From Anaerolineae bacterium (GTDB lineage Bacteria > Chloroflexota > Anaerolineae > DUEN01), in assembly GCA_025060615.1 (NCBI GenBank), contig JANXBS010000017.1:1-64000 (forward strand): DNA of 64,000 bases, given 5' to 3'. Below the pieces are notes generated by a model, which did no database searches, was not told where the DNA came from, and saw nothing but the letters and a program-made list of their open reading frames with translations. Both the position numbers and the translations under genes were made by a program. Shown here piece after piece: positions 3,155 through 9,143 of the stretch (within the stretch, counting starts at the first letter, position 1; every line of letters starts with the position of its first letter).

Positions 3155-3251
3155 GAAGTCTGCAATCACCCTAGAGAGAGGCTCGTGCTAAGCCAATCCC
3201 TTGCTCGATCTCTTTCACTCGCCCGGAACTATCGGTCATCCAGGAGCCTCC

Positions 3252-3824
3252 ATGGCCCGACAGGTCCTGTTCGAGCACCGTACATCTACTGGCCAACTCA
3301 TTCGCATCATCCAGGGCGACCTCACTGAGGAGCCGGTAGATGCCATTGTCAACGCTGCCAACGAATACCTGACCCACGGCGGTGGCGTCGCTGGCGCCAT
3401 CGCCCGCAAGGGTGGTCCCGAAATCCAAGCCGAAAGTGATCGCTGGGTACGCGAACACGGCCCAGTCCGCACAGGCACCGCTGCTATTACCACCGCCGGC
3501 CGCCTCCCCGCCCGCTACGTCATCCACGCCGTTGGCCCTATCTGGCGCAACCGCGGCGACGAGGATGCCCTCTTAGCCTCTGCGGTCACCTCGGCGCTGA
3601 CCCTGGCCGCCGAACACGAGGTCCGCTCCATCTCGCTGCCTGCCATCTCCTCCGGTATCTTCGGCTTCCCCAAACCTCGGGCGGCGCGGGTCATCTTAGA
3701 TGCCGTAGACACCTTCCTGCAAGCTCACCCTGACGGCCCGATCCAAGAGGTGAACCTGTGCAACATAGATGACCTGACGGCGCGCCTGTTCCTAGAGGAG
3801 GCGCAGCGACGCTATCATCAATGA
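3252..3824 (+). CDS. macro-domain protein (ADP-ribose-1''-phosphate phosphatase or deacetylase type)
   Basis: A 190-residue protein formed by one macro domain. The ADP-ribose-binding signature is clear: GDLTEEPVDAIVNAANEYL, then GGGVAGAIARKGG, then SLPAISSGIFGFPK. Macro domains of this type hydrolyse ADP-ribose phosphate, O-acetyl-ADP-ribose or protein mono-ADP-ribosylation in the cytoplasm. The ATG at 3252 is chosen because AGGAG lies 6 bases upstream and the protein then starts at the usual place. An in-frame start at 3201 would add 17 unrelated residues. No clear operon partner; the next gene has its own promoter. Confidence 0.9.
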   Translation: MARQVLFEHRTSTGQLIRIIQGDLTEEPVDAIVNAANEYLTHGGGVAGAIARKGGPEIQAESDRWVREHGPVRTGTAAITTAGRLPARYVIHAVGPIWRNRGDEDALLASAVTSALTLAAEHEVRSISLPAISSGIFGFPKPRAARVILDAVDTFLQAHPDGPIQEVNLCNIDDLTARLFLEEAQRRYHQ

Positions 3825-3854: not shown

Positions 3855-3883
3855 TGGACAGCCGGTGGGTCTTCGGCTATAAT
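3855..3883 (+). promoter_or_regulatory. sigma70-type promoter of the glnE-like gene
   Basis: TGGACA (3855-3860), a 17-bp spacer and a perfect TATAAT (3878-3883). Transcription should begin near 3890, only a few bases before the ATG at 3894, so the message is probably leaderless. The ATG at 3882 overlaps the -10 box and cannot lie in this transcript. Confidence 0.7.
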
Positions 3884-3893
3884 GCCCCTACAT

Positions 3894-6800
3894 ATGGACA
3901 CACCAAATGCCGATCATCGTGATCCGTTGCGCAAGGGATTGGGTGACGACGAAGCGCTCAGATCGCTCGCATCGGTTCGGGTGGCTGATGGGCATGCCGC
4001 CAAACATCGCCTGTATCGTCTGGCTGAAGCCTCTGAAACATGCCGCGCGCTCGATCAATGCCTTCCCGCCTTGCTGGCCGCCCTCAGCGACATCGCGGAC
4101 CCTGATCGCGTCTTGGTAAACCTGGAGCGGCTCGCCCACAGCGTGACGGATCGGCATGCCCTCTTCCAATACTTGGCCCAGAACCCGCGTGCCATTGAGA
4201 TCCTGGTGACCCTCTTTGCAGGCAGCCAGTTCCTCACCGAGATCTTGCTGCGCAACCCCAACGCCCTCCCACGGCTGGTCGAGTACAAGCGCCTGGCCCG
4301 CCTGAAGAGCGTGGGACAACTCGCCGCCGAAGCCCAGGCGGCTCTAGCGCCCTATACGGCAGTGGATGATCAGCTCGACGCGCTACGACGCTTTCAGCGC
4401 TGGGAGCTGTTGCGCATCGGCGCGTGCGACCTGCTTGGCCTGCTCGATTTACCCAGTGTGACCGCCCAACTCTCATGCCTGGCCGACAGCCTGGTCCGCG
4501 TGTGTCTTATCATCGCCGCCCAACAGACCCACACCGCTGTGGATGGCTTCGCCGTCCTTGCGATGGGAAAACTAGGAGGCGGAGAGCTGAACTACAGCTC
4601 AGATATTGATCTACTGTTCATCGCCGCATCGCAGGCTTCGGCATATCATGCGCTTGGCCAGCAGCTGATCGAGGCGCTAACCCGCGTTACCTCTGAAGGA
4701 TTCCTCTACCGGGTGGACATGCGGTTGCGCCCCTGGGGGACCAGCGGCGCGCTGGTCACCTCACGAGACGGATACATCTCTTATCTGCGCCGTCATGCTC
4801 GGCTGTGGGAAAAACAGGCCCTTCTCAAAGCGCGCGTGATCGCCGGCGACGAGAAAATCGGAAACGAGTTCCTGCGCCAGGCAGAGCCATTGCTCTTCAA
4901 TTGCGCTCGCGAGGAAATCCGCGCCGACGTCCGAGCGCTCAAACAGCGCATCGAGGCAGAGCTGCGCCGAAATGGAGGGGGATGGGGCGAAGTCAAGCTG
5001 GGCATCGGCTCCATCCGCGATGTCGAGTTCGTCGTCCAATATCTGCAACTGATCCACGGTGGGCAGTGTCCCCATGTGCGCAGCCCTAACACGCTTGACG
5101 CCCTTGTGCGGCTGTTCGCCGCCGGCTTCCTCTCGGCCGCCGATTACCGGGTGCTAGTTGATGGGTATACGTTCCTGCGCACGGTGGAACATCACCTGCA
5201 GATGATGCACTACCGGCAAACGCATCGGCTGCCCGATGACCACGAACAATTGACTCAACTCGCCCTACGACTGGGCTTCGAGGGAAGCTTGGCCGGCGCT
5301 CGCTTCCTTACCCGCTACCAGCAGCACACCGCGGCGATCCGCGCGGTGTACGAACGTTATCTGGAGGCTGAAGACCCCATGGCACCAGACCCACCGGCTC
5401 ATCCTCCCATCCCCAACAGCTATCACCACCTGGCGCGCATGGACCCCTCTTACGCGACGACGTTCAGCGCTGAGGAAATCCGACATCATAGCGAGTTGGC
5501 CGAGCGGCTCAACGATGAACATCTGGTGGAGGTGGAAGCCATCCCGCTGGATGATCGGCGTTGGCGCGTCACCATTGTGGCTTACGACTACTTGGGCGAG
5601 CTCTCACTGATCTGCGGGCTACTGTTCGTGTACGGCTTCAACATCCTGGATGGCGACATCTTCACTTACGAGCCGGCCACCGCCTCGACAGTTTCAACCA
5701 TCTCAGGCTATCGGACCCGACGACGACGTCCCTCACCAACAGCGGACACGCGACGGAAAATCGTGGACGTGTTCACTGTACGATCAGAGCTGGCCGAAAT
5801 CCCGGCTGATATCTGGGCGCGCTATACAGATGATCTAGCTGCCCTGCTGCGAGAGCTCCAGGCCGGCCGGCAGCGAGAGGCGCAGGGCGCTTTGGCCAAA
5901 CGGATCGCCACCGCCCTGCGCGAGGCCCCCGGTACCACGGCCACGCTCTACCCAGTGGACATCGAGATCGACAACTCCAGCTCCGAGCGGTACACGGTCC
6001 TCCACATTGACGCTCCCGATACCATTGGCTTCCTTTACGAGTTCACCAACGCCCTAGCGCTCAACGGCATCTATATCGCCCGGGTAACGGTGAGTTCCGT
6101 GGGCGCGCGAGTGCGAGACACCCTCTACGTCACCGATGCGCGTGGGCAAAAGATCATTTCCCCCAACAAGCAACGCGAGCTACGCGCTGCCACAGTTCTG
6201 GTGAAACATTTCACCCGGCTGCTACCCCACTCGCCCAACCCCGAACTGGCCTTGTTACACTTCCAAGAGCTCCTCGGGCAACTGTTCGCGCGCCCCAATT
6301 GGCCGGACGAGCTCGTCTCACTAGAACGGCCCGAGGTCCTGGAGGCGCTTGCCCGTCTACTCGGCGTCAGCGATTTCTTGTGGGATGACTTCCTGCGCAT
6401 GCAGTACGACAACCTGTTCCCGCTCGTGCGCGACGTAGGCGCGTTGGCTGTGGCCAAGCCCAAAGCCCAGCTGCAGGCCGAGCTAGAGGCCGCGCTGCAA
6501 GCGGCCCCCGATTATGAGGCCCGACGGGCAGCTCTGAACGCCTTCAAAGACCGCGAGATGTTCCGCATTGACATGCGGTACATCCTGGGGCACATCACGG
6601 AATTCGGCCAATTCTCGGCAGAGCTGTCTGACCTCGCCGAGGCCGTCGTGGACGCGGCCTATCGCCTTTGCCATGAAAAATTGCAAGCTCAGTTCGGGAC
6701 GCCTTGCCTCGAGGACGGCGCGCCCTGTCCAATCGCTGTTTGCGGGCTGGGCAAGTGCGGTGGACGGGAGCTAGGGTTCGCCTCGGACATCGAGCTGATG

Positions 6801-7577
6801 TTTATCTACGCTGGCAACGGTCAGACCACCGGCCCTCATGTCATCACCACGGCCGAGTTCCTTGAGAAGCTGGTCCAGGAGTTCCTGCAGACGATCCAAG
6901 CGAAGCGGGAAGGCATCTTCGAGATAGATCTGCGGCTGCGCCCGTATGGGCGGATGGGCAGCCTGGCAGTGTCGCTGGAGGCCTTTCGACGTTATTTCGG
7001 CCCGGGCGGGCCGGCGTGGGCCTACGAGCGACAGGCGTTGGTAAAGCTACGCCCCATTGCCGGCGATGAGGCGCTGGGCCGGCAGATCGTAGCCCTGCGC
7101 GATGAATTCGTCTACAGCGGCGAGCCTTTCGATGTCGCTGCCATGCGCGCCATGCGCGAGCGCCAGCTTCGCCATCTCGTGGCCGGCGGCACCATCAACG
7201 CCAAGTTCAGCCCTGGGGGGTTGGTAGACCTGGAATATCTAGTACAGGGTTTGCAGATACAACATGGCCACCGCGACCCCACCCTGCGTCTGACCAATAC
7301 ACGCGAGGCGATGGCAGCACTGGCAGCGGCGGGGATCCTCTCGCCGGAGGACTACGCACGGCTGCGCGAGGCGCATATCTTCCTGCGCCGGCTGATCAAC
7401 GCGCTGCGCATGGTGCGCGGCAACGCCCGAGACCTGACCATCCCTCCGCCCACCAGTGAGGAGTTCGCATTCCTGGCTCGCCGCTTGGGATACGGAAGCG
7501 AACTCGCCCGGCTCCAAGAAGACTTAACCCGACATACCACAGCGGTGCAGGAGCTGAGCGTGAAGCTACTGGGATAG
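3894..7577 (+). CDS. glnE: glutamine synthetase adenylyltransferase-like protein with two internal ACT domains
   Basis: A 1227-residue protein. Domain order: nucleotidyltransferase 1 (AMGKLGGGELNYSSDIDL, about 219-240), GlnD/GlnE linker helices (GIGSIRDVEFVVQYLQ, about 365-385), an ACT-like domain (about 540-600, YDYLGELSLICGLLFVYGFN), a second ACT domain (about 699-750, DAPDTIGFLYEFTNALALNG), nucleotidyltransferase 2 (CGLGKCGGRELGFASDIEL, about 946-970) and a second linker block (about 1100-1124). The two half-enzymes match the adenylyl-removing and adenylyl-transferring halves of GlnE, which modify glutamine synthetase. The E. coli enzyme has about 945 residues and no ACT domains; the extra 280 residues here are the ACT pair, resembling GlnD. 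The second catalytic motif is DxE instead of DxD. glnA follows 135 bases downstream. Start at 3894 because 3882 lies in the -10 box. Confidence 0.88.
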   Translation: MDTPNADHRDPLRKGLGDDEALRSLASVRVADGHAAKHRLYRLAEASETCRALDQCLPALLAALSDIADPDRVLVNLERLAHSVTDRHALFQYLAQNPRAIEILVTLFAGSQFLTEILLRNPNALPRLVEYKRLARLKSVGQLAAEAQAALAPYTAVDDQLDALRRFQRWELLRIGACDLLGLLDLPSVTAQLSCLADSLVRVCLIIAAQQTHTAVDGFAVLAMGKLGGGELNYSSDIDLLFIAASQASAYHALGQQLIEALTRVTSEGFLYRVDMRLRPWGTSGALVTSRDGYISYLRRHARLWEKQALLKARVIAGDEKIGNEFLRQAEPLLFNCAREEIRADVRALKQRIEAELRRNGGGWGEVKLGIGSIRDVEFVVQYLQLIHGGQCPHVRSPNTLDALVRLFAAGFLSAADYRVLVDGYTFLRTVEHHLQMMHYRQTHRLPDDHEQLTQLALRLGFEGSLAGARFLTRYQQHTAAIRAVYERYLEAEDPMAPDPPAHPPIPNSYHHLARMDPSYATTFSAEEIRHHSELAERLNDEHLVEVEAIPLDDRRWRVTIVAYDYLGELSLICGLLFVYGFNILDGDIFTYEPATASTVSTISGYRTRRRRPSPTADTRRKIVDVFTVRSELAEIPADIWARYTDDLAALLRELQAGRQREAQGALAKRIATALREAPGTTATLYPVDIEIDNSSSERYTVLHIDAPDTIGFLYEFTNALALNGIYIARVTVSSVGARVRDTLYVTDARGQKIISPNKQRELRAATVLVKHFTRLLPHSPNPELALLHFQELLGQLFARPNWPDELVSLERPEVLEALARLLGVSDFLWDDFLRMQYDNLFPLVRDVGALAVAKPKAQLQAELEAALQAAPDYEARRAALNAFKDREMFRIDMRYILGHITEFGQFSAELSDLAEAVVDAAYRLCHEKLQAQFGTPCLEDGAPCPIAVCGLGKCGGRELGFASDIELMFIYAGNGQTTGPHVITTAEFLEKLVQEFLQTIQAKREGIFEIDLRLRPYGRMGSLAVSLEAFRRYFGPGGPAWAYERQALVKLRPIAGDEALGRQIVALRDEFVYSGEPFDVAAMRAMRERQLRHLVAGGTINAKFSPGGLVDLEYLVQGLQIQHGHRDPTLRLTNTREAMAALAAAGILSPEDYARLREAHIFLRRLINALRMVRGNARDLTIPPPTSEEFAFLARRLGYGSELARLQEDLTRHTTAVQELSVKLLG

Positions 7578-7663: not shown

Positions 7664-7712
7664 GCTCAGGTAAAAATTTTACGAGAATCCGTTGGGCGAA
7701 AGGAGCGTCGAG

Positions 7713-9143
7713 ATGCCACTTCAGTGTCACACCCCAGAGGATGTTTTGGCCGTCATCCGAGAACGGGATATCCAAATCGTAGATGTCCGCTTCATTGACA
7801 TGCCCGGTATCTGGCAGCACTTCTCAGTGCCGGCCAAGGCATTTGATATGAGCGCCTTCACCGAGGGCCTTGGGTTTGACGGGTCATCTATCCGCGGCTT
7901 CCAGCAGATCCAAGAAAGCGACATGCTGTTGGTCCCCGACCCGACCACTGCCTTCTTGGATCCTTTCACCGCCGTGCCGACGCTGGTGCTCATCTGCAAC
8001 GTGCGCGATCCGATCACCCGCCAGAACTACACCCGGGATCCGCGCTACATCGCGCAGAAGGCAGAGGCATACCTCCGGAGCACAGGCATTGCAGATGTCA
8101 GCTACTGGGGTCCCGAGGCCGAATTCTTCGTCTTCAATGACATCCGCTACGGACAGGACGTCAACTACGGCTTCTACTATATTGACTCGATCGAAGGAAG
8201 CTGGAACACCGGTAAGGAAGAAAACCCCAACCTCGGCTACAAACCCCGCATTAAGGAGGGATACTTCCCGGTGCCGCCCAGCGATGTCTTACAGGACATC
8301 CGCACCCAAATGGTGCTGACCATGATCGAAGCGGGCATCGAGGTCGAGGCGCATCACCATGAGGTGGCCACTGGCGGGCAATGCGAAATTGATATGCGCT
8401 TCTGCACCCTGACCCAGATGGCCGACAATCTGATCAAGTACAAGTACATCGTGAAGAACGTTGCCCGCAAGAACGGCATGACGGCCACCTTCATGCCTAA
8501 GCCGCTCTTCGGCGATAACGGCTCAGGCATGCACTGCCATCAGAGCCTTTGGAAGGACGGCGTGAACCTGTTCTATGATGAAAACGGCTACGCCGGTCTA
8601 AGCCAGTTGGCTCTCTATTATATCGGCGGCATCCTTAAGCACGCGGCGGCTCTACTCGCCTTCTGCGCGCCAACGGTTAACTCATACCACCGCCTGGTAC
8701 CAGGCTTTGAGGCGCCGATCAACCTGGTATACTCGCAGCGCAACCGTTCCGCCTGTTGCCGTATCCCTATGTACTCGCAGAATCCAAAATCAAAGCGCGT
8801 AGAGGTGCGCTTCCCAGACCCCTCGTGCAACGGCTATCTGGCCTTCGCCGCGATGTTAATGGCCGGCCTCGACGGCATCCAGAATCAGATTGACCCCGGT
8901 GAGCCTATCGACAAGGACCTGTATGACCTGCCACCGGAAGAAGCCGCGCGCGTCAAGTCCACTCCTGGTTCCCTGTCCGAAGTGCTCGACGCGCTAGAGG
9001 CAGATCACGAGTTTCTGCTGAAAGGGGATGTCTTCACGCCGGACGTGATCGAGGTTTGGCTGGAGTACAAGCGCACTCGCGAGGTGGACCCGATCCGCCT
9101 ACGCCCCCATCCGTACGAGTTCCACCTGTACTTCGATATCTGA
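7713..9143 (+). CDS. glnA: type I glutamine synthetase
   Basis: A 476-residue cytoplasmic enzyme forming glutamine from glutamate, ammonia and ATP. Family blocks are present: FDGSSIRGF near the N-terminus, [10 protein letters not shown], the ATP-binding [17 protein letters not shown], and the [20 protein letters not shown] block. The adenylylation loop reads [11 protein letters not shown] with the target tyrosine at residue 404, so the protein can be a substrate of the GlnE-like protein encoded just upstream. The ATG at 7713 is preceded by AAAGGAG; an in-frame TTG at 7692 would place this ribosome site inside the gene. A hairpin follows the stop codon. Confidence 0.97.

Follow-up and report, generated by a model that had tools for sequence, protein, structure and literature searches.

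The window analysed here, a 64,000-nucleotide stretch of an Anaerolineae genome (contig JANXBS010000017.1), carries an open reading frame that is best explained, from profile and structure-model matches, as glnE, encoding a predicted bifunctional glutamine synthetase (GS) adenylyltransferase/deadenylylase, with glnA immediately downstream. Between the two halves of this GlnE lies a pair of ACT domains of the kind found in GlnD; GlnE proteins with this arrangement are termed ACT-GlnEs. The features of the locus are as follows.

3882–7577, + strand: glnE ORF of 1231 aa; GlnD-type ACT module between the deadenylylase and adenylylase halves
4086–5366, + strand: N-terminal half (deadenylylase, AR-like), aa ~69–495; 1v4a match, PF03710 205 bits
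4596–4613, + strand: catalytic SSDIDL (D241, D243); 63/63 ACT-GlnEs
4716–4718, + strand: third acidic residue of the first half, D279; 63/63 ACT-GlnEs
5424–5525, + strand: pre-ACT helical segment, aa 515–548; TIGR01693 and hhalign matches, helices in the AlphaFold model
5526–5861, + strand: ACT1, aa 549–660, pocket motif D569-x-x-G572; AlphaFold model
5958–6230, + strand: ACT2, aa 693–783, pocket motif D713-T714-x-G716-F-L; PF24931, 5.5e-07
6234–7574, + strand: C-terminal half (adenylylase, AT), aa ~785–1231; 3k7d match, PF03710 167.5 bits
6786–6794, + strand: catalytic D969-I-E971 of the second half; 63/63 ACT-GlnEs, E. coli alignment
6927–6929, + strand: third acidic residue of the second half, D1016; 63/63 ACT-GlnEs
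7692–9143, + strand: glnA, adenylylatable-type glutamine synthetase (type I); TIGR00653, 680.7 bits
8922–8924, + strand: codon of the target tyrosine within DKDLYDLP; residue 404 counted from the ATG or 411 counted from the TTG

The original prediction had placed the reading frame at 3894–7577; its stop end stands, but the true start is 3882, 3894 being the fifth codon (M5), and the residue numbers given with it are 4 too low because the start was taken at M5. In a Pfam search, PF03710 matches the ORF twice (4200–4877 and 6342–7085), and two GlnD_UR_UTase helical domains are found besides these two GlnE domains. NCBIfam PRK11072 (bifunctional GlnE) scores 536.9 bits, above its 487-bit cut-off; the full GlnD profile TIGR01693, including the HD domain, scores 59.2 bits against a cut-off of 519.4, with the ACT part alone matched. 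By these matches the protein is a GlnE, not a GlnD PII uridylyltransferase. Both halves are recognised by structure as well as by the two PF03710 matches: in a structure model of aa 60–1231 (pTM 0.55, with the relative placement of domains uncertain), the first half aligns with 1v4a, the deadenylylase domain of E. coli GlnE (Z 39.0, rmsd 2.6 over 407 residues), and the second with 3k7d, its adenylylase domain (Z 38.1, rmsd 3.6 over 465 residues). The acidic catalytic set is kept in both halves, D241/D243/D279 and D969/E971/D1016 being unvarying in 63/63 ACT-GlnEs, although the second-half motif reads DxE here and DxD in E. coli GlnE.

Because both halves superpose on their E. coli counterparts, the additional module can be placed at their junction, which in E. 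coli GlnE is occupied by a linker and central regulatory region (domain layout: PMC12409994). The whole module, a pre-ACT helix followed by two ACT domains, spans aa ~515–783, about 270 residues. Positions 622–844 of TIGR01693, corresponding to the GlnD ACT pair, are matched at aa 515–770, and a profile–profile comparison (hhalign) of the module with four GlnD C-termini gave a probability of 99 and an E-value of 5.5e-18 over 220 columns; as in GlnD, a helical segment precedes ACT1. An AlphaFold model of aa 500–812, built from 61 relatives, contains two complete ACT folds (mean pLDDT 90.6, pTM 0.87), with a disordered loop of ~28 residues (about aa 597–625) in ACT1 before its last strand (626–635). 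The domain search and structure prediction that had been proposed as checks thus bear out the original prediction of two ACT domains of the GlnD kind between the nucleotidyltransferase halves. ACT2 was matched by PF24931 and PF01842 in Pfam; ACT1, which had no match in the single-sequence Pfam search, was seen through the GlnD profile comparison and the AlphaFold fold. The range first given for ACT1, residues 540–600, does hold ACT sequence but is too short for a domain that extends over aa 549–660 and is interrupted by the loop. GlnD models match the module region in 61/61 relatives, and this agreement with the profile comparison and the fold prediction rules out a chance ACT similarity. The module profile matched nothing in E. 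coli GlnE and nothing significant among PDB sequences. The best explanation of the kinship with GlnD, which includes the pre-ACT helix, is that GlnE may have acquired the C-terminal sensor module of GlnD at the hinge between its halves.

The predicted substrate is encoded next door. The end of glnE and the TTG start of glnA (7692; ATG at 7713) are 114 bp apart, both genes being on the + strand, in agreement with the expectation that glnE lies directly upstream of glnA, and the DKDLYDLP loop of GlnA retains the target tyrosine at residue 404, a number that holds when counted from the ATG. The tyrosine loop is present in 38/38 GlnAs adjoining an ACT-GlnE (window included) and in 1/30 GlnAs of genomes in the class that lack GlnE (Fisher p about 2e-18, uncorrected for phylogeny), the latter being mostly of a shorter, loop-less type. 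A GlnA with the loop was also found in 20/21 genomes comprising carriers with a non-adjacent glnA and three carriers of a single-half variant described below, the exception by pattern being G333. glnA adjoins glnE in 24/45 loci with enough flank, mostly divergently, and the gene order in the window is therefore one of several. The one loop-bearing case among the 30 (L174) comes from a single-contig genome without GlnE (G205), whose GlnA keeps a DVDLYELPPEE loop.

A scan of genome contigs yielded 416 relatives. The best 80 of these are mostly from Anaerolineae, with others from Calditrichota, a few titled Planctomycetota, Thermoanaerobaculia, Spirochaetales and further groups; complete copies among these 80 are arranged half–ACT–ACT–half in frames of about 1180–1420 residues, and one locus (L095) has a broken glnE frame. 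Viral copies of ACT-GlnE were not found. GlnE is rare in the phylum (9/301 genomes) and occurs in 49/297 genomes of the class, where, fragmentary matches aside, the match coordinates of GlnEs with both halves on one contig give a half spacing of roughly 2.0–2.3 kb, compared with about 1.5–1.6 kb in ACT-less Planctomycetota GlnEs. Among 20 Planctomycetota loci, the ACT profile matches the 5 whose halves are widely spaced and none of the remaining 15. In a tree of first halves, 26/26 ACT-bearing rows fall on one side of a branch with support 100/98.9, and the Planctomycetota carriers are nested beside the lineage of the window; this topology suggests that the ACT pair may have been inserted once and later transferred laterally. 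The shared order in complete copies and the single ACT clade rule out a local oddity or an assembly join.

Three proteins from other Chloroflexota classes (L024:5180–7774, L025:5156–7168 and L026:5499–8129) consist of the same ACT pair and, after it, an adenylylase half, with no deadenylylase half. They fall within the ACT-GlnE clade of the second-half tree (100/99), in which the Planctomycete rows L249, L250, L252 and L253 were disregarded, having been entered as first halves from loci cut short. GlnD was not found in the three genomes, in which GlnA still carries the tyrosine loop. These proteins are possibly one-way GS adenylylases and suggest that the ACT module may be functionally tied to the adenylylase half.

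The textbook example of a bicyclic relay is the GlnD–PII–GlnE–GlnA cascade of E. coli. Enterobacterial GlnD responds to glutamine and PII passes on its state, and adenylylation by GlnE requires unmodified PII (PMC6316151). The original prediction that E. coli GlnE takes its signal from PII therefore holds insofar as PII is needed, but adenylylation there is also glutamine-dependent, alongside PII (PMC6316151). GlnD is considered to sense glutamine through its ACT domains (PMC3173338). In the genome of the window, a TIGR01693 search found no GlnD, the absence that it had been proposed to check, the sole match outside glnE being an HD-domain stretch; canonical PII (at least 60 bits) was likewise not found, the sole PII-family match above cut-off scoring 27.9 bits. 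With GlnD and PII not found, one protein may replace the three-protein relay.

We propose, with a probability of roughly 60%, that ACT-GlnE condenses the enterobacterial bicyclic cascade into one protein, the balance of adenylylation and deadenylylation being set by the ligand of the ACT pair. When nitrogen is plentiful, glutamine or another amino acid would bind the ACT interface and rearrange the hinge between the halves, which would favour transfer of AMP onto Tyr404 of GlnA by the C-terminal half and restrain the N-terminal, deadenylylating half; falling glutamine would reverse this balance, and in Chloroflexota the cycle would run without PII uridylylation. The proposal accounts for what is observed: the two folds and their acidic residues, the GlnD-type module, the single clade, the GlnA loop and the missing relay. 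From these we infer the ligand, the direction of control and, in Chloroflexota, regulation without PII.

The main competing account is that GlnE is controlled in the ordinary way, by a divergent PII-like protein and an intrinsic glutamine response, with the ACT pair tuning or stabilising the enzyme. The E. coli enzyme, which uses both PII and glutamine (PMC6316151), offers a precedent, and weak PII-like proteins exist that could act on GlnE, among them the 27.9-bit protein of the window genome, whose gene lies beside a cation/proton antiporter gene. A survey of carrier genomes bears on this account from both sides. It covered 52 handles, 46 of them from Chloroflexota with one duplicate (G220 = G320), so that 45 were counted. 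Six of the 45 Chloroflexota carriers keep canonical PII, a counterpoint to PII-independent control, as do 6/6 of the non-Chloroflexota carriers in the survey, 3/6 of which have GlnD; on the other side, 39 of the 45 are without canonical PII and GlnD was found in none (0/45). Across the class, hand counts from the listed matches put PII (60 bits or more) in 11/49 GlnE carriers and 55/248 non-carriers, so that GlnE and PII are independent in these 297 genomes, which argues against ordinary control and equally rejects a link between GlnE presence and PII absence. We regard ordinary control as unlikely. Whether one-protein control extends to a self-contained circuit across many Anaerolineae, with glutamine sensed through the GlnD-type ACT pair and GlnA modified in both directions without PII or GlnD, we would put at even odds. 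That the ACT pair strictly takes the place of GlnD in all lineages is ruled out by Planctomycetota, where 8/8 ACT-GlnE genomes encode a full GlnD and the module thus adds to the relay rather than replacing it. In the window genome, a double cyclic-di-AMP receptor protein (L003:305–1003 and 1474–2109) is encoded near the cation/proton antiporter and PII-like genes.

The nature of the ligand raises a second alternative. E. coli GlnE answers glutamine without ACT domains, so the pair in ACT-GlnE could have another ligand, such as another amino acid, and feedback would then come from a different nitrogen-metabolism end product. Many amino acids are bound by ACT domains, and the solved paired-ACT neighbours of the module are the regulatory domain of a threonine dehydratase with an amino-acid ligand (9d2r; Z 7.9, rmsd 3.4, 138 residues), which also counts in favour of the main proposal, and aspartate kinase. 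We consider this alternative quite improbable, since the entire module with its pre-ACT helix is akin to GlnD in sequence; by analogy with GlnD the ligand is probably glutamine, which stands as a candidate, its identity lying beyond what AlphaFold and family membership can tell. The glycine of the β1–α1 loop is a hallmark ligand-site residue of ACT domains, discussed for GlnD and ACR proteins (PMC3173338). Across 63 ACT-GlnEs, D569 is 100% and G572 98% conserved, D713, T714, G716, F717 and L718 are each 100% conserved, and conservation in ACT2 as a whole (71%) exceeds that in the catalytic halves (60% and 67%). A ligand-free structural or dimerising spacer, for which one might cite the likeness to the ACT-like domains that plant transcription factors such as GL3 and maize R carry and the purely predicted status of the ligand, is highly improbable given this conservation of the pocket residues and of ACT2.

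The proposed one-protein control by an ACT pair can be set against known systems. E. coli GlnE has the same two homologous halves in the same order, the catalytic motifs and the GlnA tyrosine target, but nothing in it matches the ACT module, and it is controlled by PII and PII-UMP. GlnD shares the pre-ACT helix and ACT pair at its C-terminus (TIGR01693 622–844), whereas in the window GlnE the module is internal and joined to GS-modifying halves, with no HD domain. The same helix-plus-ACT arrangement occurs in L-GDH180 of Mycobacterium smegmatis (9hv0 residues 472–616; Z 8.2, rmsd 3.4, 132 residues), which is otherwise a large glutamate dehydrogenase with no nucleotidyltransferase. In the open-access papers searched we found none joining glnE with an ACT domain, although an earlier description is possible, and none joining PII protein, Chloroflexi and GlnD. 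The parts are each known; their combination, a GlnE with the GlnD ACT pair, conserved as a clade that lacks GlnD, seems to be undescribed. As E. coli GlnE is already glutamine-dependent, the glutamine response itself is not new; the new feature is the dedicated sensor module inside GlnE. The ACT-GlnE clade makes it testable whether covalent GS control runs on a single regulator and provides a natural comparison for ACT control of GlnD; it also hints at nitrogen sensing in Anaerolineae that surveys of PII would overlook.

Several neighbouring and related loci were also recorded. A macro-domain protein gene (3201–3824; PF01661, 3e-42) lies on the same strand 57 bp upstream of glnE; it was rejected as a GlnE partner, no homologue being present near glnE in related loci. 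Positions 40–547 hold a CRISPR-like array of seven repeats of about 37 nt at a spacing of 74–79 nt, and the ORFs called within it are probably spurious translations. Finally, L027:5048–7480 encodes a fatty-acid desaturase domain (PF00487, 2.4e-22) fused to a GlnE-like nucleotidyltransferase stretch (PF03710, 2.2e-08).
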